In this document: in pieces, positions 3,014 through 17,143 of the stretch
How the letters are laid out: every line of letters starts with the position of its first letter
How positions within the stretch are numbered: the first letter of the stretch is position 1
From: a virus
IMG/VR virus record: IMGVR_UViG_3300024059_000041
Coordinates: 1 to 20,517 of that record
Reading direction: 5' to 3' (one strand)
Length of the DNA stretch: 20,517 nucleotides
The notes under the pieces: model-generated
Databases searched by the model: none
What the model was told of the DNA's origin: nothing
Seen by the model: the letters and a program-made list of their open reading frames with translations, nothing else
Program-made: the position numbers and the translations under genes

Positions 3014-4022
3014 CTAAATTCTCCACCATTTGTATTCTTTCGCCGATCCAGCGCATAACCGGGACGGCCATTGAGTTGCCCATTGCCTTATATCGAGGGC
3101 CATCTGGGCAGTCATCCGCTGATTTGTTGCGCCACGGTATTTGCGTGAAGTTGTCAGGGAAGCCTTGTAGGCGTTCGCATTCTGTTGGGGTCAGGCGGCG
3201 TACTTGCAAGTCATTCATAACCGCTGGCGTTTTGCTCTTATCCAGCGTTGGCGTGACTTCCGTTGACACGCTGTCGCCTTGGTTGGCGCTGTTTTGTGCG
3301 CCGAAAGCTATTGGCAAAGTCTCCATAAACGGATCATACATGCTGCCCGTGCGCGTTGTTAGGCACTGAGCAACGATAGCCTCCGCCTCTACTCGCTGGT
3401 TGCCTGTGCGACTGAATGGAGCGCCTTGTGTAACTGTGGGGGCAGTTTCTTGCCCCGCTTCTCTGCTCGGCGCAGGATGCCCTGACATGCTTTCGCGCTC
3501 AAATAGAACCGCTGCGGCACGTCGCCAGTCTCCAAGGTATCCGACAACGAACACACGGCGGCGTCGCTGGGCCACTCCGAAGTACTGAGCGTCAAGCACT
3601 CTGTAGGCGAACCCATACCCGAGCTGGCCCAACGCCCCGAGGAAGGTTCCAAAATCCCGTCCTCGTTGGCTAGACAAGACGCCGGGGACGTTCTCCCAAA
3701 CCAACCACTTGGGCTGATATTGTGCAGCAATGGCAAGATAGGTGAGCATGAGATTTCCCCTTGGGTCATCAAGTCCCTTGCGAAGTCCTGCGACTGAGAA
3801 ACTTTGGCAGGGGGTTCCTCCGACCAAAAGGTCAATTGATCTGTCAATGGGCCACTCCTTAAATTGCGTCATGTCACCAAGGTTAGGGACATCTGGGTAA
3901 TGATGCGCCAGCACGGCGCTTGGGAACTTTTCTATTTCGCTGAACCATTGCGGCTCCCAGCCAAGAGGATGCCACGCGGCGGTGGCTGCCTCAACGCCAG
4001 AGCATACTGAACCATATTTCAT
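3006..4022 (-). CDS. dcm: DNA (cytosine-5-)-methyltransferase
   Basis: A full 338-residue C5-MTase with all main motifs in order: motif I GSVCSGVEAATAAWHPLG (about 4-21), motif IV GGTPCQSFSVAG with catalytic Cys72, motif VI WENVPG (Glu110), motif VIII AQRRRRVFVVGY (about 151-162), a target-recognition region of about 100 residues (about 165-268), motif IX TPTECERLQGFPDNF, and motif X AMGNSMAVPV. It transfers methyl from AdoMet to cytosine C5 in a short DNA target; no restriction enzyme partner is adjacent, so it is most likely an orphan methylase protecting phage DNA from host restriction or marking it. The start overlaps the upstream stop (ATGA) and the next microgene overlaps its end. Target sequence cannot be deduced. 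The gene symbol is generic. Confidence 0.93.
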   Translation of the reverse strand: MKYGSVCSGVEAATAAWHPLGWEPQWFSEIEKFPSAVLAHHYPDVPNLGDMTQFKEWPIDRSIDLLVGGTPCQSFSVAGLRKGLDDPRGNLMLTYLAIAAQYQPKWLVWENVPGVLSSQRGRDFGTFLGALGQLGYGFAYRVLDAQYFGVAQRRRRVFVVGYLGDWRRAAAVLFERESMSGHPAPSREAGQETAPTVTQGAPFSRTGNQRVEAEAIVAQCLTTRTGSMYDPFMETLPIAFGAQNSANQGDSVSTEVTPTLDKSKTPAVMNDLQVRRLTPTECERLQGFPDNFTQIPWRNKSADDCPDGPRYKAMGNSMAVPVMRWIGERIQMVENLDG

Positions 4023-4786
4023 GTCTCACCCTCAAAACAGTTGTTCAACGGTTGAATAGGTTGCTTGCTAAACACCCAGCGCCATTGGTGCTTAGTGTAG
4101 CCCGGAACCTTGACAAAATCACGCACGCGGTAAACCTTGTTCGCCTGCCACATTTTCTTGAGATAGCTTGACGTGCGCGGCACGCTATCACCCAGCAACT
4201 CAGCCGCCTCTGCGGCGGTCACGCGCTGGTCATACGGGATCAAAGCAAACAGGCGGTTGCCTTGGTCTATACTGTGCTGCTTGCTGGCCTCAGCTGCTCT
4301 CTGCATAGATGGGGCCATAGTTGTCGCCCTGCGCGGGCCAGACGGCAGCGGGTCACGTTTGTGCTGGCGATACATGAGCGTTTCAAACTCCCATAGGCAG
4401 TGGCCGTATGTGATCTCAAAGCGCTCATGCTTATCTGTCACGCCTTCTAGCTTGGCGAGCAATCGCTCTGCTGCGTCTTTTGCATCTCGCGCTTTAGCAC
4501 GTCGATTAGCGCTTGCTGCTCTTCTAGTCGCTGCTTCAAGTTCGGCCTCATCTGAGTTTTCTGCTCCGTCAGCATTATGCTGTTGTTGCGCTCCAGCCTT
4601 TTTATAATAATCTGAGTTTGGTCCGTACTCACGTTTTTTCCTTTCAAGTTTTATGTTCGCAGCCGAACAAATACGATGTATTGTTGACGGTGACACCCGC
4701 AGCAATTCTGCTGTCTCGATCTGAGACATACCTTGCTGGGCGCAGTCAAGAACGTGGCGGGTGAGAGCTTCTGGGTCGTATTTCAT
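4019..4786 (-). CDS. Two-HTH DNA-binding protein
   Basis: The start at 4786 is chosen because its ATG overlaps the PP-loop gene's TGA (ATGA); an upstream in-frame ATG would lie within that gene. The 255-residue product has an N-terminal helix-turn-helix (about 15-46: GMSQIETAELLRVSPSTIHR), as in homeodomain-like or Trp-repressor-like folds. A low-complexity charged middle rich in A, E, K and R follows (about 60-115), then an ordered region and a second winged-HTH-like segment near the C-terminus (VTAAEAAELLGDSVPRTSSY). The two DNA-binding ends and charged linker suggest a regulator or replication-initiator-type protein. It lies between a PP-loop ATPase and a DNA methylase, and its stop overlaps dcm (ATGA). 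No specific family recognised. Confidence 0.7.
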   Translation of the reverse strand: MKYDPEALTRHVLDCAQQGMSQIETAELLRVSPSTIHRICSAANIKLERKKREYGPNSDYYKKAGAQQQHNADGAENSDEAELEAATRRAASANRRAKARDAKDAAERLLAKLEGVTDKHERFEITYGHCLWEFETLMYRQHKRDPLPSGPRRATTMAPSMQRAAEASKQHSIDQGNRLFALIPYDQRVTAAEAAELLGDSVPRTSSYLKKMWQANKVYRVRDFVKVPGYTKHQWRWVFSKQPIQPLNNCFEGET

Positions 4787-5692: not shown

Positions 5693-7606
5693 TTATAAGT
5701 TTTTGCATTTGCCTTCGCTATCAGTGAACCACACATGGCCGTCGTTCAAAACCATATGCCCAGCCCCAACAAGCGCATCCACAGCTTGCTTATAGACTTG
5801 GCTCTTGTTGGACGCAGTTGTGACCTTGCCCATGAAGTGATCTTTCAGAGTTTCCTCAGAGATAACCCAATACGTTCTAGGCTCTGGCCAACCAACCCCT
5901 CCGGGATTTGGCTGACCAACGCCCTCACCGCGCAACTGCGTGAACACCTTGCGGATTAGGACTTGGTTCTTGCCCTTGATGCGTGGCTTGTTGGCCTCTT
6001 CAATCTCGCTCTCTGTGGCTTGGATGACGGTACAGGTGGTTACGCTGTCACCATCCTCATCAAGCCCGAGGTCAACCACGTTCAGCTTGAACTGGAACGT
6101 CGCGCCTGTTTCCATGTCACGTTGCTTTGTGGCCTTAGCAATACGCAGGCCCGTGTTCTCATCGTGGTCAAGCTCAATCTCTGTATCGGTAGCAGCACGC
6201 AGGCTTGAGTGGCCACGCGCACCAGCGGCTTTATCCTTGCCGGAGTGGTGTACCACGTCCAAGTGTGCGCTTGTTATCTCGCGCAGCTTATCGCAGTTGC
6301 CAATGAACTTTGTCATATCCTCTGGCGAGTTTTCATTTCCGCCAGCCATTGATCTGCTTAACGTGTCCACGAATATGCACTTAACCTGACCGTGCTTTTT
6401 TGACACCTCGCGGCACAGCTTTTCAAGCACGGCCATGTCAACCTCGCCATCAAGCAAGTTGACCGGAGCCGGACGCACAGCCAGCTTCACGTTCTTATGC
6501 TCGGGATACTTCGCCTTGAGCGCAACAACGCGGTTGTGGAACGCCATGCCACCCTCTGTTGCGAGGTATAAGACAGAGCCGCCAATAACCTTGTGGCCGT
6601 TCCACTCCTGACCGCAGGCGATGTGCCACGCAAGGTCAAGGGCGAAGAATGACTTGCCCACGTTCGACGGGCCGTAGATCACAGACATTTGCCCCTCGCC
6701 AAGCCAGCCTTTCACAAGATAGTTTCGGCTAAGTTGGGGTATCGCGTCTTCCGGCATGAAAATCTGATCCATGACACTCTGCACGGTCAATGCCTTCTTT
6801 GCCGCTGCCGGGCCTTGGTTCACCCATACGTCGGAGTAATCCCAGCCCTCATTGTCTGGCAGGATGTACTCAACGCCAAGCTCAGAGAATGCACGCTCGC
6901 ACTCCTTACGCCCAGCATCATCATTGTCGCCTGCAATAACAAGCTCGGCTTCTGGCTTGGCTTGTTGCAGGTTGTCGATCACGGCCAAAATGTTCCCTGC
7001 ATTTAGAGCGAACACGCACGGCTTGCCCGTGGCCTCATGCACAGTCGCGGCTGTTGCCCAGCCCTCTGCAACATATGCAAAGTCTCGAATGGGTCCGCCG
7101 ATAACGCTAAAGTTGCCAATCACGGGGAGCTGGTAGGAAAACTTTTTCTTACCGTCAGCATCAATAAACTGAGCGCCAACACGCTTGCCGCGCACATCAA
7201 TGATAGGAATGGTCAGCGTGTCGCCGTCCACCTTGGCATTGTGCAGCTTAATCTTTTTCTTCTCAAGGTACGGGTGGTCGCTCATAGCGTCACGCTCTGG
7301 CCAATCAATGTCAACTCTTGCCACCTCCAGTTTGGGCGTATGTCCGGGCTGTGGCCACAATGACATATCGCGCAGTCTATCTTTAATTGATTTGTAATCA
7401 TTACACTTGCGGCAGTTGACCATAACTTCGCCGTGGAACTCTTTGATCCAAAATCTGTCTGTGCCAGCACATGAGGGGCATGGACCGTGATACTCGCCCT
7501 GCGCAGTCTTTTTAAGCTCAAGATTGCGTATGATGCTGTGACCAAACTCGCTCCACTGAGCGGCTGGAAACTTGCTTTCTGAGACTGTGTTCATAATTGG
7601 CCTCAT
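5693..7606 (-). CDS. Fused primase (zinc-ribbon + TOPRIM) and RepA-type helicase
   Basis: A 637-residue replication protein. An N-terminal zinc ribbon (C43-x2-C46 ... C65-x2-C68) is followed by a TOPRIM core with Glu181 (VAEGWATAATVH) and the acidic DNDDAGR block at about 227-233. A RecA/RepA-like ATPase comes next: Walker A GPSNVGKS at 312-319, then LYLATEGG, and Walker B IFVDTLSR at about 411-418. A conserved HHSGKDKAAGARGHSSL segment, sensor-like in AAA_25/RepA helicases, and a C-terminal winged-helix-like tail follow. It primes and unwinds DNA at the phage fork, like T7 gp4 in concept but with a RepA/RSF1010-type helicase. ATG 7606 overlaps the upstream stop; an ATG 12 nt further in is an alternative start. 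Confidence 0.9.
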   Translation of the reverse strand: MRPIMNTVSESKFPAAQWSEFGHSIIRNLELKKTAQGEYHGPCPSCAGTDRFWIKEFHGEVMVNCRKCNDYKSIKDRLRDMSLWPQPGHTPKLEVARVDIDWPERDAMSDHPYLEKKKIKLHNAKVDGDTLTIPIIDVRGKRVGAQFIDADGKKKFSYQLPVIGNFSVIGGPIRDFAYVAEGWATAATVHEATGKPCVFALNAGNILAVIDNLQQAKPEAELVIAGDNDDAGRKECERAFSELGVEYILPDNEGWDYSDVWVNQGPAAAKKALTVQSVMDQIFMPEDAIPQLSRNYLVKGWLGEGQMSVIYGPSNVGKSFFALDLAWHIACGQEWNGHKVIGGSVLYLATEGGMAFHNRVVALKAKYPEHKNVKLAVRPAPVNLLDGEVDMAVLEKLCREVSKKHGQVKCIFVDTLSRSMAGGNENSPEDMTKFIGNCDKLREITSAHLDVVHHSGKDKAAGARGHSSLRAATDTEIELDHDENTGLRIAKATKQRDMETGATFQFKLNVVDLGLDEDGDSVTTCTVIQATESEIEEANKPRIKGKNQVLIRKVFTQLRGEGVGQPNPGGVGWPEPRTYWVISEETLKDHFMGKVTTASNKSQVYKQAVDALVGAGHMVLNDGHVWFTDSEGKCKNL

Positions 7607-8043
7607 TTCTTCTGATCTAACTGGGCTGACTTCTTGGCCAATCCCTTGACGTGAGGATTGTTTACGCCAGTCCGAGACTTACAGTATTTAATGAACCTCG
7701 GCATATTGAGGTTCTCCTTTTGCGTACCCCATCTCAAATTGTCTGGCCTGTTATCAAGAGCGTCTTCATTGATGTGGATAACGATTGGCTTGTCTGCTGG
7801 TGGTGGTCCGTGGAATGCCTCACATATCAATCTATGAACTTTGTAATTTTTTCCCCTGTAGACGATGCCATAATACTTATGTTTAGCGGAGGATGACGCC
7901 TTAGTCTCAGTGCCTCTCACCCACCTTGTCTTATAGGTTCTAAATCCACCATTTGGCATTTGCTTCCTACTTTCTGGCCACTTCACCTCACCTAAATCGT
8001 TGGCTAAGGCACCGGGTACTTGATTTATTGTTCGTATCTGCAT
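7603..8043 (-). CDS. HNH homing-type endonuclease
   Basis: Start at 8043 is chosen for AGGAGG about 9 nt upstream, giving 146 residues. The core reads GIVYRGKNYKVHRLICEAFHGP ending in VIHINEDALDNRPDNLRW, the HNH_3 pattern (His in VHRL, then the H-x-N/D-x-x-x-x-D-N-R-x-x-N-L-x-W block). After it come MPRF and a TGVNNPHVKG-like tail resembling NUMOD3 DNA-contact repeats. These enzymes nick or cut specific DNA and spread their own gene. It separates SSB from the helicase within an otherwise tightly packed operon, consistent with insertion of a selfish gene between replication genes. Its stop overlaps the helicase start (ATGA), so it is well integrated. No intron boundaries are seen. Confidence 0.85.
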   Translation of the reverse strand: MQIRTINQVPGALANDLGEVKWPESRKQMPNGGFRTYKTRWVRGTETKASSSAKHKYYGIVYRGKNYKVHRLICEAFHGPPPADKPIVIHINEDALDNRPDNLRWGTQKENLNMPRFIKYCKSRTGVNNPHVKGLAKKSAQLDQKK

Positions 8044-8096
8044 GAGCAAAATCCTCCTGCCCATGCAGATACATTAGAAATGATACGGTATCAAGC

Positions 8097-12340: not shown

Positions 12341-12535
12341 ATGGAAAAGGTGGATATAAAGGTGGATAAAATGTCAGACAAAAAACGCTTGATTAACTTT
12401 GCCGAAGAATACGACCGGGTAATATCGGAGGCTGCGCGCCGGTCCGGGCTATCGTTTAGCGCGTTTTGCCGGAGCGCAGCGCTAGAAAAAGCCGCTGATA
12501 TTGTGAAGCACGTCGATCAACCGAGGGCCGATTGA
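12341..12535 (+). CDS. Ribbon-helix-helix (CopG/Arc-like) regulator
   Basis: A 64-residue protein (or 54 if the second ATG at 12371 is used, which has GGTGG about 5 nt before it). The segment KKRLINFAEEYDRVISEAAR followed by RSGLSFSAFCRSAALEKA gives a short beta-strand then two helices, the RHH fold: strand R-L-I-N-F, helix 1, a turn with S-x-S, helix 2 with F-x-R. RHH proteins dimerise and bind short repeated DNA sites. It is divergent from the leftward operon and precedes RuvC, overlapping its start (TGATG). Candidate targets are the intergenic region upstream or the iteron block downstream. Two GGTGGATA repeats precede the second ATG. Confidence 0.75.
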   Translation: MEKVDIKVDKMSDKKRLINFAEEYDRVISEAARRSGLSFSAFCRSAALEKAADIVKHVDQPRAD

Positions 12536-13008
12536 TGCTGATCTACGGATGTGATCCGGGATTTACCGGGGCCGTGGCGTTATACTGGACCGATACAGGC
12601 AAGCTGGAAGTGCATGACATGCCGGTAATGAAAAATCCAAAAGGTAAGGCGGTCATAAACTGCCCGGCATTATTGGACGTGCTACAGAACGAAAGCGGTG
12701 AGCGTTGCCTTGCCGTCATTGAGCAAGTGGCCGCAATGCGCGGGCAAGGTGTGTCCAGCATGTTTCGCTTCGGTGAAGGCTACGGGATGCTGCAAATGGG
12801 ATGCGCTGCAAACAGGCTGCCCGTGCAATTTGTGACGCCCGCAAAATGGAAAGGCTACTTTGGCTTGAGCCGTGACAAGGGTGTTTCTCGCGGCTTGGCA
12901 ATGCAGCGCTTTCCAGACAACGCCAGCGATTTTGGCCGAGCGAAAGATGACGGAAGGGCCGAAGCGGCCTTGCTTTGCCTATACGCGGCAGAAAATATGG
13001 TTTCATAA
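12535..13008 (+). CDS. RuvC-like Holliday junction resolvase
   Basis: A 157-residue protein with RNase H-fold catalytic residues in the RuvC order: Asp7 in YGCDPGFTGAVAL, Glu63 in AVIEQVAAM, and D138-D139 with Glu143 in KDDGRAEAALL. The phage group shows the same IEQ and DDGRAEA pattern, plus the intermediate region PVQFVTPAKWKGYFGL. It cuts four-way junctions with Mg2+, resolving recombination intermediates before packaging. The start at 12535 overlaps the RHH stop (TGATG); TTG at 12532 is also in frame but less likely. The iteron region follows its stop. Confidence 0.9.
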   Translation: MLIYGCDPGFTGAVALYWTDTGKLEVHDMPVMKNPKGKAVINCPALLDVLQNESGERCLAVIEQVAAMRGQGVSSMFRFGEGYGMLQMGCAANRLPVQFVTPAKWKGYFGLSRDKGVSRGLAMQRFPDNASDFGRAKDDGRAEAALLCLYAAENMVS

Positions 13009-13150
13009 TTGGATCATAATTGTGGAGCCATATAAATAAGGGGCTTGGTGGTGTAATTATGATAATTATGATGTAATTATGATTTAATTATTACTTTGGT
13101 CCAGTCACATCATAATATCATAAAATGCCTATAGGCATTATGATTATGAT
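13003..13150. repeat. ATTATGAT iteron cluster, possible origin or operator
   Basis: Seven exact copies of ATTATGAT or its complement ATCATAAT lie at 13013, 13056, 13065, 13076, 13109, 13137 and 13143, with near-copies at 13003 and 13117. Three direct copies at 13056-13083 are 9 and 11 bp apart. The region is strongly AT-rich against a balanced genome. It lies in a 171-bp gap between RuvC and an unknown gene. Iteron clusters of this sort act as replication origins or as arrays for RHH-type regulators; which applies is unknown. Confidence 0.6.
13124..13139. repeat. 16-bp perfect palindrome
   Basis: AATGCCTATAGGCATT is a perfect 16-bp palindrome set inside the iteron cluster between copies at 13117 and 13137. 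It is GC-richer than its surroundings, so it could form a cruciform or be a dimer binding site. Confidence 0.6.
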
Positions 13151-13179
13151 CTGGGACGGTGTTGATGGGAGTTAATGAA

Positions 13180-13452
13180 ATGGTTTTTGATTGGGCTAAG
13201 TGGGTCAGGCATAAGATTGAGAAGGGCGAGGCGGTCGTTCGCCCTGTAGGCTATCATAAAGGGGTCGAGCGGTTGCAGGGGTTTAGATCAAGGCTTGACG
13301 CTTGCCGGGATTTGGGGGAGCTGGAAGGCTTCGCCAATCGGCGCAAGTTTGATCCGACATTGCCGAAGTGGAATGCAAGTGAACGCGATGCAATATTGCG
13401 GCGCAAGTTTGAGATGGAGAATAATGGGAATGAACGACGCAAGAAAAAATGA
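13180..13452 (+). CDS. Hypothetical 90-aa basic protein
   Basis: Start at 13180 follows GGGAG by about 8 nt; earlier in-frame GTG and ATG codons at 13159 and 13165 are less well placed. The 90-residue product has an amphipathic N-terminal helix (VFDWAKWVRHKIEKGEAVV), a middle (GVERLQGFRSRLDACRDLGE) and a very basic C-terminus (RRKFEMENNGNERRKKK). The basic tail suggests nucleic acid contact. No family recognised. Its end overlaps the MazZ-like gene, so the two are coupled. Confidence 0.65.
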   Translation: MVFDWAKWVRHKIEKGEAVVRPVGYHKGVERLQGFRSRLDACRDLGELEGFANRRKFDPTLPKWNASERDAILRRKFEMENNGNERRKKK

Positions 13453-13759
13453 CCAAGGCAAGGAGCCAATCGAATTGATTGCGCCGGAGTTTATATTCGG
13501 CACGGCGCGAGTGCTGGGCTTTGGCGCAGACAAATACGCTGCGCGCAATTGGGAAAAGGGAATGCGCTGGGGCCGCGTGTTTGGCGCGTTAATGCGTCAC
13601 CTCTGGGCTTGGTGGGGTGGAAAGACTGCAACGCGGAATTTTGCGTTTAGCGAGCTGGATAGCGAAACGGAGGTATCTCACCTATGGCACGCCGCGTGCT
13701 GCCTCATGTTCCTGATAGCGTATGAGGAGCGCGGCACGGGTGAGGATGATAGGCCATGA
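13424..13759 (+). CDS. MazZ-like dATP/dGTP diphosphohydrolase (DUF5664)
   Basis: Start at 13424 (ATG, GGAG a few nt upstream) gives 111 residues; ATG 13430 is equally possible. The body reads FGTARVLGFGADKYAARNWEKGM, then RHLWAWWGG, LDSETEVSHLWHAACCLMFL. The G-A-x-K-Y-x-x-x-N-W block, R-H-L, and the D-x-E-T-x-x-x-H-L-x-H-A block match phage DUF5664, a MazG-related pyrophosphohydrolase fold (all-alpha, E/D/H metal ligands). Characterised members (MazZ) hydrolyse dATP/dGTP to dAMP/dGMP for Z-genome synthesis with PurZ; no PurZ is present here. Many members occur without Z-DNA and may clear dNTPs. It overlaps the upstream gene. Confidence 0.82.
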   Translation: MGMNDARKNDQGKEPIELIAPEFIFGTARVLGFGADKYAARNWEKGMRWGRVFGALMRHLWAWWGGKTATRNFAFSELDSETEVSHLWHAACCLMFLIAYEERGTGEDDRP

Positions 13760-15753: not shown

Positions 15754-17143
15754 TAACCCGCTTGAGGAGTTTGTGCTGCGTTACCGCGATGACCCTGCGT
15801 TATTTGTGACGGAGGTGCTTGGCGCAACGCCATACGACTATCAGGCCGAGTTTTTGAACGCGCTAGCGGATGGCGAGCGCAAGATGAGCGTCAGGTCTGG
15901 ACACGGCACGGGCAAGTCTACGACTGCATCATGGGCTATGCTTTGGTTTGTTCTGCTGCGCTTTCCGAATAAGGTTGTAGTCACGGCCCCCACGTCTGGC
16001 CAGTTGTTTGACGCGTTGTTTGCGGAGCTGAAGCGCTGGATTAATGAGCTGCCGGACCAGCTTAAAGTTTTGCTTACGGTTAAGTCAGACAGGGTTGAGC
16101 TAATGGCTGCTCCGAGCGAGGCGTTTATTTCGGCTAGAACAAGCCGGGCAGAGACGCCGGAAGCGTTGGCTGGGGTACACTCGGAGAATGTGCTGTTAGT
16201 TGTGGACGAGGCTTCTGGTGTGCCTGAGAAGGTATTTGAGGCTGCTGCTGGGTCAATGTCTGGCCACTCAGCGACTACGATTTTGCTGAGCAACCCGACG
16301 CGCTCATCTGGCACGTTTTACGAAAGCCAGACGCGCATGGCATCTAGTTGGTGGACTAGGCGCTGGTCGTGCGTAGATAGCCCACTTGTGTCTGACGAGT
16401 TTGTTGACGAGATGCGTTCAAGGTATGGCGAGGATAGCAATGCGTTTCGCATTCGTGTTCTTGGCGAGTTTCCCATGGCGGATGACGACACGATTATTCC
16501 GTTCCACTTGGTTGAGAGCGCTATTCGCCGTGATATTGAGGTCACGCCTGACGAGAAGCCTATTTGGGGCTTGGACGTGGCTCGGTTTGGTGCGGACAAG
16601 ACTGCGCTGTGTAAGCGGTATGGCAATGTTGTGACTGAGATTACGTCATGGCAGGGCTTGGACTTGATGCAGACTGTCGGGCGTGTGATGGCCGAATACG
16701 AAGGCTTGCCGCCTTCTATGCGGCCAAAGGAAATACTTGTTGACAGTATTGGCGTTGGCGGCGGTGTTGTTGATAGATTGCGTGAGCTTGGCGCTCCTGT
16801 GCGTGGTATTAATGTTGGCGAGGCCCCTGCTATGGGCAGCACATACATGAATTTACGCGCAGAACTTTGGTTTAAAACAAAGGGTTGGCTAGAGGATAGG
16901 TCATGCAAGCTACCGAACGACGATCAATTGCTAGCAGAGCTAACTGCGATACGCTACGGGTTTACTCCCGGCGGCAAGATGAAAGCTGAGAGTAAGGATG
17001 AGATGCGCAAGCGCGGGCTTCGCTCTCCTGACCTTGCTGACGCGTTATGCCTGACAATGGCCAGCGATGCTGCAACTGCATTGTCTGGCTCCATGTTAAG
17101 CTGGAAGCAAACTATTAAACGTAACTTAAAAGGTATTGCATGA
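15743..17143 (+). CDS. terL: Terminase large subunit
   Basis: Start at 15743 has GAGG 10 nt upstream and overlaps TerS; other in-frame ATGs at 15728 and 15734 lie earlier in TerS. The 466-residue protein shows Walker A SGHGTGKST (52-60), LLVVDEASG (151-159, Walker B plus catalytic Glu), and motif III LLSNPTRSSG (181-190), then an RNase H-fold nuclease with D278 (GLDVARFGADKTA), D334 (ILVDSIGVGGG) and D430/D433 (SPDLADAL). It pumps DNA into proheads and makes the headful or unit cut. The layout resembles phage terminases of the P22/Terminase_6-like groups. It is followed by a 62-aa gene overlapping as ATGA. Confidence 0.93.
   Translation: MSNDNPLEEFVLRYRDDPALFVTEVLGATPYDYQAEFLNALADGERKMSVRSGHGTGKSTTASWAMLWFVLLRFPNKVVVTAPTSGQLFDALFAELKRWINELPDQLKVLLTVKSDRVELMAAPSEAFISARTSRAETPEALAGVHSENVLLVVDEASGVPEKVFEAAAGSMSGHSATTILLSNPTRSSGTFYESQTRMASSWWTRRWSCVDSPLVSDEFVDEMRSRYGEDSNAFRIRVLGEFPMADDDTIIPFHLVESAIRRDIEVTPDEKPIWGLDVARFGADKTALCKRYGNVVTEITSWQGLDLMQTVGRVMAEYEGLPPSMRPKEILVDSIGVGGGVVDRLRELGAPVRGINVGEAPAMGSTYMNLRAELWFKTKGWLEDRSCKLPNDDQLLAELTAIRYGFTPGGKMKAESKDEMRKRGLRSPDLADALCLTMASDAATALSGSMLSWKQTIKRNLKGIA

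Follow-up and report, generated by a model that had tools for sequence, protein, structure and literature searches.

Comparison of an A+T-rich repeat block with its counterparts in related phages leads us to regard it as very probably a phage DNA replication origin, which would be bound by the winged helix of a one-polypeptide primase-helicase initiator encoded by the same phage. The block lies in a 20,517-base sequence (hereafter the window, i.e., the whole stretch of DNA analyzed), which is a complete IMG/VR virus record and probably itself a fragment.

The Repeat Block and Its Neighboring Genes

The ATTATGAT octamer is present in seven exact copies in the record, five forward and two reverse, all of them inside 13013–13150, and a scan of the whole 20.5-kb record found none outside this interval. 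Shuffling of the whole window gave a mean of 0.70 copies; when the 148-bp block alone was shuffled with dinucleotides kept, the mean was 0.14 with a maximum of 3, and no 8-mer reached seven copies in 5000 block shuffles. The core TTATGA/TCATAA occurs nine times in the block (starts at 13003, 13014, 13057, 13066, 13077, 13110, 13118, 13138 and 13144), whose G+C content is 28.4% as opposed to 51.0% for the window. These results are in line with the preliminary description, which had reported seven exact octamers in both orientations and an embedded 16-bp palindrome within an AT-rich stretch of 148 bp. The block is therefore both A+T-rich and occupied by several copies of a short word, as expected of iteron origins in general. 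Its parts and the adjacent genes are as follows (word classes are defined below):

12341–12535, plus strand: ribbon-helix-helix (RHH) protein of 64 aa, NikA-like/TacA1-like, upstream of RuvC; does not track the word
12535–13008, plus strand: RuvC-like Holliday junction resolvase (phrog_1770), immediately 5′ of the array; does not track the word
13003–13021, minus strand: S1, two reversed words (TCATAATTGGATCATAATT), the first overlapping the RuvC stop codon, where the block starts; same position and orientation in relatives
13022–13048, plus strand: box X, single-copy GTGGAGCCATATAAATAAGGGGCTTGG between S1 and S2; kept between word classes A and B
13054–13092, plus strand: S2, direct words TAATTATGAT, AATTATGAT, GTAATTATGAT and TTAATTATT, spaced 9–11 bp; spacing kept in relatives with other words
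13107–13151, no strand assigned: H2, imperfect inverted repeat of 45 nt composed of two reversed words, a tip and two forward words; capable of forming a hairpin or cruciform
13124–13139, no strand assigned: H2 tip, AATGCC-TATA-GGCATT, the 16-bp palindrome AATGCCTATAGGCATT
13159–13452, plus strand: 97-aa gene of unknown function, immediately 3′ of the array, with its reading frame starting about 8 bp after the block

The 97-aa gene is followed by a dATP/dGTP pyrophosphohydrolase gene, within which the DNA at 13519–13732 matches that of Nostoc and Microcystis phages with 73% identity, a similarity across phyla that was not expected. The replication genes, encoding an exonuclease, a Gp2.5-like single-stranded DNA-binding protein (SSB) and the primase-helicase, run leftward on the minus strand. 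An HNH endonuclease gene (7603–8064, minus strand) is inserted between primase-helicase and SSB, which is the case in just 3 of 65 loci (L026, L029 and L036). The cumulative GC skew reaches its minimum near 12 kb, in agreement with an origin in this region, but the coding strand also switches at this position, so that the minimum is not independent evidence.

The Words Change as a Set in Related Phages

With the RuvC protein as query, 65 viral loci were retrieved, and the DNA behind RuvC was then compared. Around 40 relatives share one layout, namely S1 with its two reversed words, the single-copy box X, the four direct words of S2 about one helical turn apart, and the hairpin H2; the S1–H2 block is absent from the more distant RuvC relatives L054–L063. 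Within this layout, the word is exchanged as a set, from AATTATGAT to AATTAATACA, AATTCATACA or AATTAGTATC. Class A (AATTATGAT) comprises the window, L004, L006, L017, L018, L022, L027, L035–L038 and L040, with L009 being degenerate; class B corresponds to AATTAATACA/AATTCATACA, class C to AATTCATACA and class D to AATTAGTATC. The conservation in relatives that the preliminary description had proposed as a check thus holds for the spacing and orientation of the octamers, but not for their letters.

Word class does not follow RuvC identity, be it 97% or 70%, and therefore the modules have recombined. More generally, close relatives exchange word classes without a matching change in any of the genes that separate helicase and array. 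The place of box X in many relatives matches the IHF consensus WATCAANNNNTTR, with two mismatches in the window copy; the exact WATCAANNNNTTR was found between S1 and S2 in 14 of 65 arrays, compared with 1.4 expected in shuffles. A DNA pattern search of viral contigs with the word pair yielded 10 matches, which were judged to be chance and unrelated to the phage.

The Primase-Helicase C-Terminus Tracks the Word

G001 (class B) and G002 (class A) are near-isogenic contigs whose RHH, RuvC, SSB, terminase and primase-helicase proteins are 97–100% identical; their words differ. The C-terminus of the primase-helicase differs by class, with GKVTTASNKSQVYKQAV accompanying word A, GKVSSAANPRSTYKQAV word B and GKVSSSSNPRSVYKQAM word C. 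Alignment columns of 15 genes were then tested in five class-A and six class-B phages, for which four extra helicase C-termini were fetched. Seven columns separated A from B perfectly, all of them in the primase-helicase (residues 596, 597, 599 and 601–604), while no such column was found in the 14 other genes, including those for RHH, RuvC, SSB, exonuclease and terminases. The corresponding features of the window are:

5693–7606, minus strand: primase-helicase of 637 aa with zinc ribbon/Toprim, RepA-like helicase (AAA_25) and C-terminal winged helix; proposed initiator
5693–5971, minus strand: winged-helix domain of the primase-helicase, residues 546–637; proposed origin-binding domain
5795–5821, minus strand: primase-helicase codons 596–604 (TTASNKSQV), holding the sole A/B-separating residues among the 15 genes

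The helix type NPRS was present in each of the 12 class-B and class-C members that could be read, among them G004, and NKSQ in five out of five class-A members. Class D, which was examined once the A/B/C pattern was known, combines the word ATTAGTA with a third helix type, NPSSIY, in its sole readable C-terminus (L264). Taken together, this covariation supports the view that the reader of the word is the winged helix in the primase-helicase that the phage itself encodes. It is also what points to a cognate replication protein as reader of the word, another feature of iteron origins.

In the AlphaFold model, the C-terminal region consists of a helix (546–560), a strand (579–583), two further helices (584–594 and 601–614) and a two-strand wing (618–627), and the domain predicted alone had a pLDDT of 91. 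As modeled, the C-terminus of the primase-helicase is a winged helix with a recognition helix, 601–614, that starts at the class-separating residues. A fold search with this domain gave weak winged-helix matches only (best E 0.005), and no specific relative is claimed. The helicase part matches RSF1010 RepA (1g8y, E 3e-8), and the entire primase-helicase resembles T7 gp4.

Two other candidates for the reader were discarded. A helix-turn-helix (HTH) protein encoded at 4019–4786 on the minus strand does not track the word among contigs that hold both the HTH gene and the array, and it is equally present in podoviruses in which the whole replication module, array included, has been replaced. The DNA ejection proteins, which differ between three class-A and two class-B contigs, were dropped as structural genes. 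With regard to the HTH protein itself (HTH_23/HTH_28), one recognition-helix residue is H, Y or A among relatives.

Arrays Are Found Directly behind Related Helicase Genes

Cultured siphophages of Roseobacter, whose exonuclease/SSB/helicase module is the same, have the array directly 3′ of the helicase gene. Here, CRP-831 and CRP-821 combine the word TTTATAC with helix NPRS, and CRP-811 and CRP-823 the word TTTGTAG with helix NPDS; CRP-821 and CRP-823, whose words are different, are recorded on one host strain, FZCC0197. Arrays 3′ of the helicase were also observed in Alteromonas phage XX1924 (TGGTTCA), Idiomarinaceae phage 1N2-2 (GGTACA) and Salicola phage CGphi29 (GGGGACA). Among 76 viral loci encoding relatives of the CRP-831 helicase, 80% have a single 7-mer that occurs five or more times in the 250 nt following the helicase stop codon, compared with 0 of 630 background windows. 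The corresponding value for bacterial-genome loci (n = 74) was 34%, versus 0.8% in the background. A clear array is missing at 20% of the viral and 66% of the genome helicase loci, where either the origin is located elsewhere or the rule is not universal.

Further helix/word pairs were NPDS-CTACAAA, RPKK-GTCCTAA, NPHTPF-GTGTAAA, STATNKRQAW-CGTACCA, ATTNNKRQAW-CGTAACA and TATNKSQAY-ATACCAA. The Rhodospirillales bin L267 again combines helix RPKK with TAGGACA, and the Rhodobacteraceae bin L266 has NPSQ alongside ATTAGTA. Across 69 non-redundant helicase/array pairs, array similarity correlated with recognition-helix similarity once the similarity of the helicase body had been removed (partial r 0.54, permutation p 0.001), the permutation p-values being approximate since the phages are related by descent. 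When the 360-aa C-half of the helicase was scanned in windows of 10 columns, the recognition helix ranked first (0.49; median 0.04).

No array was found 3′ of the helicase gene of the window, where the array is 5.4 kb away. The best reading is that the array has been displaced by about 5.4 kb from the helicase gene in this family, while in relatives it adjoins the gene. Some podoviruses of the same virion type possess a different replication module that lacks both RuvC and the S1–H2 block and has five TGACGCA words close behind its own 773-aa helicase-like protein; thus, the array travels with the replication module. Such a replaced module, next to the same virion and lysis genes, spans 13916–16954 of L137 (in the window orientation) and also occurs in L092, L110, L116, L135, L139, L146, L149 and L166. 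In the L137-type module, the exonuclease and SSB genes are on the other strand, RuvC is missing and TGACGCA appears five times near 16602.

Several other arrangements were noted in these comparisons. An ACGTTCA array lies within, and not behind, the repA reading frame of L179 (MW202711; 34580–34800). In the more distant Roseobacter phage CRP-406 (L173; 280–490), GGCTGGA/TCCAGCC words and a hairpin, GGGAACCCTTAGGGTTTCCC, stand behind the primase gene. A second, upstream inverted word pair with a long hairpin precedes S1-X-S2-H2 in the first 130 nt 3′ of the helicase in L194, L197, L204 and L222. Finally, GC-rich words (CGGACA/CCGGACA/CGGGACA type) are present in 5–11 copies immediately 3′ of RepA-type helicase genes in alphaproteobacterial and other genome contigs, including Rhodobacteraceae (L268–L342); these arrays are probably prophage origins.

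The Palindrome Is the Tip of an Inverted Repeat, a Putative Hairpin

The palindrome forms only the tip of the 45-nt inverted repeat H2, the arms of which are built from the words themselves. As single-stranded DNA, the window H2 folds with −12 kcal/mol (z −4.3). In relatives, CC-TTTA-GG, TCT-GAA-AGA, GTGTGT-GAA-ACACAC and further sequences take the place of the tip CC-TATA-GG, and the loops measure 3–6 nt. Sixteen distinct tips were 91% paired over the first six positions, compared with 42% (SD 7, maximum 66%) when right arms were re-dealt, a pairing value that is biased upward because the tips, which share one alignment region, were located by a pairing-seeking search. Since odd or asymmetric loops of 3–6 nt interchange while the stem pairs stay, the palindrome is, on this comparison, better read as the tip of a putative hairpin (in a cruciform, single-stranded DNA or RNA) than as a site for a symmetric dimer. 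A function of H2 as an intrinsic terminator was rejected, as a T run after the hairpin was absent on both strands in the sequences read.

Proposed Mechanism and Alternative Explanations

We propose that the C-terminal winged helix of the primase-helicase would occupy some eight to ten sites, each with the word (core AATT, then the class-specific ATGAT), and that binding would set the RepA/T7-type hexameric helicase, along with its fused Toprim primase, onto the A+T-rich stretch. A host polymerase might then follow the primase-helicase; it is proposed because no DNA polymerase gene was recognized in the window. H2, exposed upon strand opening, may act as a loading or priming structure, in a similar manner to the ssi hairpins of RSF1010, and box X, which resembles an IHF site in most relatives and is degenerate in the window, could provide a bend. 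The iteron origin advanced in the preliminary description is, in this form, favored by the conserved architecture, the covariation of word and recognition helix and the arrays 3′ of related helicases, while the RHH protein, which it had named as a possible binder, is not supported.

Binding of this kind would make the array an operator or centromere of the omega/ParG type, belonging to the RHH protein encoded two genes upstream. The RHH gene is indeed 0.5 kb away, and RHH proteins recognize short repeats in either orientation. However, no RHH column tracks the word, either among 13 class-A and 25 class-B loci or among the 5 and 6 phages of the column test; moreover, RHH proteins that are 98% identical accompany different words, and the CRP phages have arrays and no annotated RHH gene, which makes this explanation very unlikely. 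A host protein as reader, with word class merely mirroring the host, would account for the wide differences in words between phages of different host groups. We attach a negligible probability to it, given that the word follows helicase residues and not lineage, and that CRP-821 and CRP-823 carry different words on one host strain, so that the reader is not a host protein.

It could also be argued that the array is bound by the helicase winged helix and yet serves as a regulatory site, for autoregulation or for control of the genes behind it, instead of as an origin. Its position in the window, between two co-oriented genes and ending about 8 bp before the next reading frame, would suit such a role, as would a conserved TATAAA-like stretch in box X. 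Nevertheless, quite different genes stand behind the arrays 3′ of the helicase in relatives, a replicative helicase is improbable as a transcription factor, and the hairpin, the IHF-like site and the A+T richness suit an origin; we therefore regard a purely regulatory site as unlikely. As for a packaging (pac) site, which headful-packaging phages need, the small terminase has no word-separating columns, and a functionless chance A+T-rich repeat is excluded by the shuffles and the conserved architecture, these two options together being extremely improbable. An origin read by the primase-helicase is by far the most probable explanation.

Significance

The replication origins of most uncultured phages are unknown. 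If the proposed reading is correct, sequence comparison alone indicates an origin, its expected reader and the residues that set specificity, and origins could be called in many phage genomes and prophages. Word and recognition helix swap jointly over a distance of more than 5 kb, and the other genes in this stretch do not change with them. This joint change constitutes a natural protein–DNA specificity experiment, for which more than ten word/helix pairs are listed. Somewhat more speculatively, a one-polypeptide initiator of the T7 gp4/RepA type may be widespread among marine phages and alphaproteobacterial prophages, which would form a class in which recognition helix and origin word diversify together as a natural recognition code, and in which co-infecting phages would fall into replication compatibility groups like plasmids. 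Whether co-infecting phages compete for each other's origin or are blind to it becomes testable.

Comparison with Known Systems

The same kind of array is located behind the primase/helicase gene of CRP-822-type roseophages (PMC12629253; PV211010–PV211014), which differ in their virion genes (tape measure, tail proteins). The main text of that paper contains none of the terms 'repeat', 'hairpin' and 'intergenic', and the array seems to be undescribed there. In the literature searched, limited to non-subscription sources, no description of the phage array or of the helicase covariation was found, and an earlier description is possible.

In the SaPI Rep and SCCmec Cch2 systems of Staphylococcus islands, short iterons lie immediately 3′ of the gene for the initiator helicase and are described as being read by the C-terminal domain of that helicase (Ubeda 2007, as cited in PMC7581432); Cch2 is reported to be a 3′-to-5′ helicase whose closest homologue is SaPI5 Rep (PMC7581432). 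The initiator-helicase C-terminal domain and the short iterons have parallels here, although iterons directly 3′ of the gene were found in relatives of the window phage and not in the window, where the array is 5.4 kb off. The phage helicase differs from the Rep/Cch type in matching RSF1010 RepA and T7 gp4 and in being fused to a Toprim primase, and the phage system further differs in its marine phage setting and its long hairpin.

Phage P4 alpha is described as combining primase, helicase and a repeat-binding winged helix, with ori and crr as origin sites (Yeo 2002; Ziegelin & Lanka 1995, as cited in PMC4234260). The phage primase-helicase likewise unites primase, helicase and a C-terminal winged helix, with predicted origin binding, in a single protein, and origin repeats and a Toprim-type primase add to the resemblance. 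P4 alpha has an SF3 helicase, and homology between the two was not detected, as P4 alpha gave no match to the primase-helicase in sequence or fold searches.

At the oriV of RSF1010 (IncQ), three proteins share the work: RepC reads iterons, RepB′ primes at ssi hairpins and RepA is the helicase (PMC4234260). The RepA-type hexameric helicase (1g8y, E 3e-8), the iterons and the origin hairpins correspond to those of the phage. H2 shows compensated stem changes and may serve in priming. In contrast, the phage would fuse iteron reading and priming to the helicase and has no separate RepC, the word tracking the fused domain.

In the pRN1 origin and in Bordetella phage BIP-1, a stem-loop lies 3′ of a gene for primase, helicase and C-terminal winged helix, and its structure is kept while the stem varies; the proteins have an archaeo-eukaryotic primase and an SF3 helicase, and the authors did not find an origin of the iteron type (PMC4234260). 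A stem-loop behind such a gene, conserved in structure and variable in stem sequence, is shared with the phages studied here, which differ in their Toprim domain, RepA-like helicase and dominant word arrays. The operators and centromeres of RHH proteins (omega, ParG) are unlike the array in that the RHH protein does not determine its word. In summary, the array and its initiator work like SaPI, P4, RSF1010 and pRN1 and, by helicase type, domain make-up and position, are a member of none of them.
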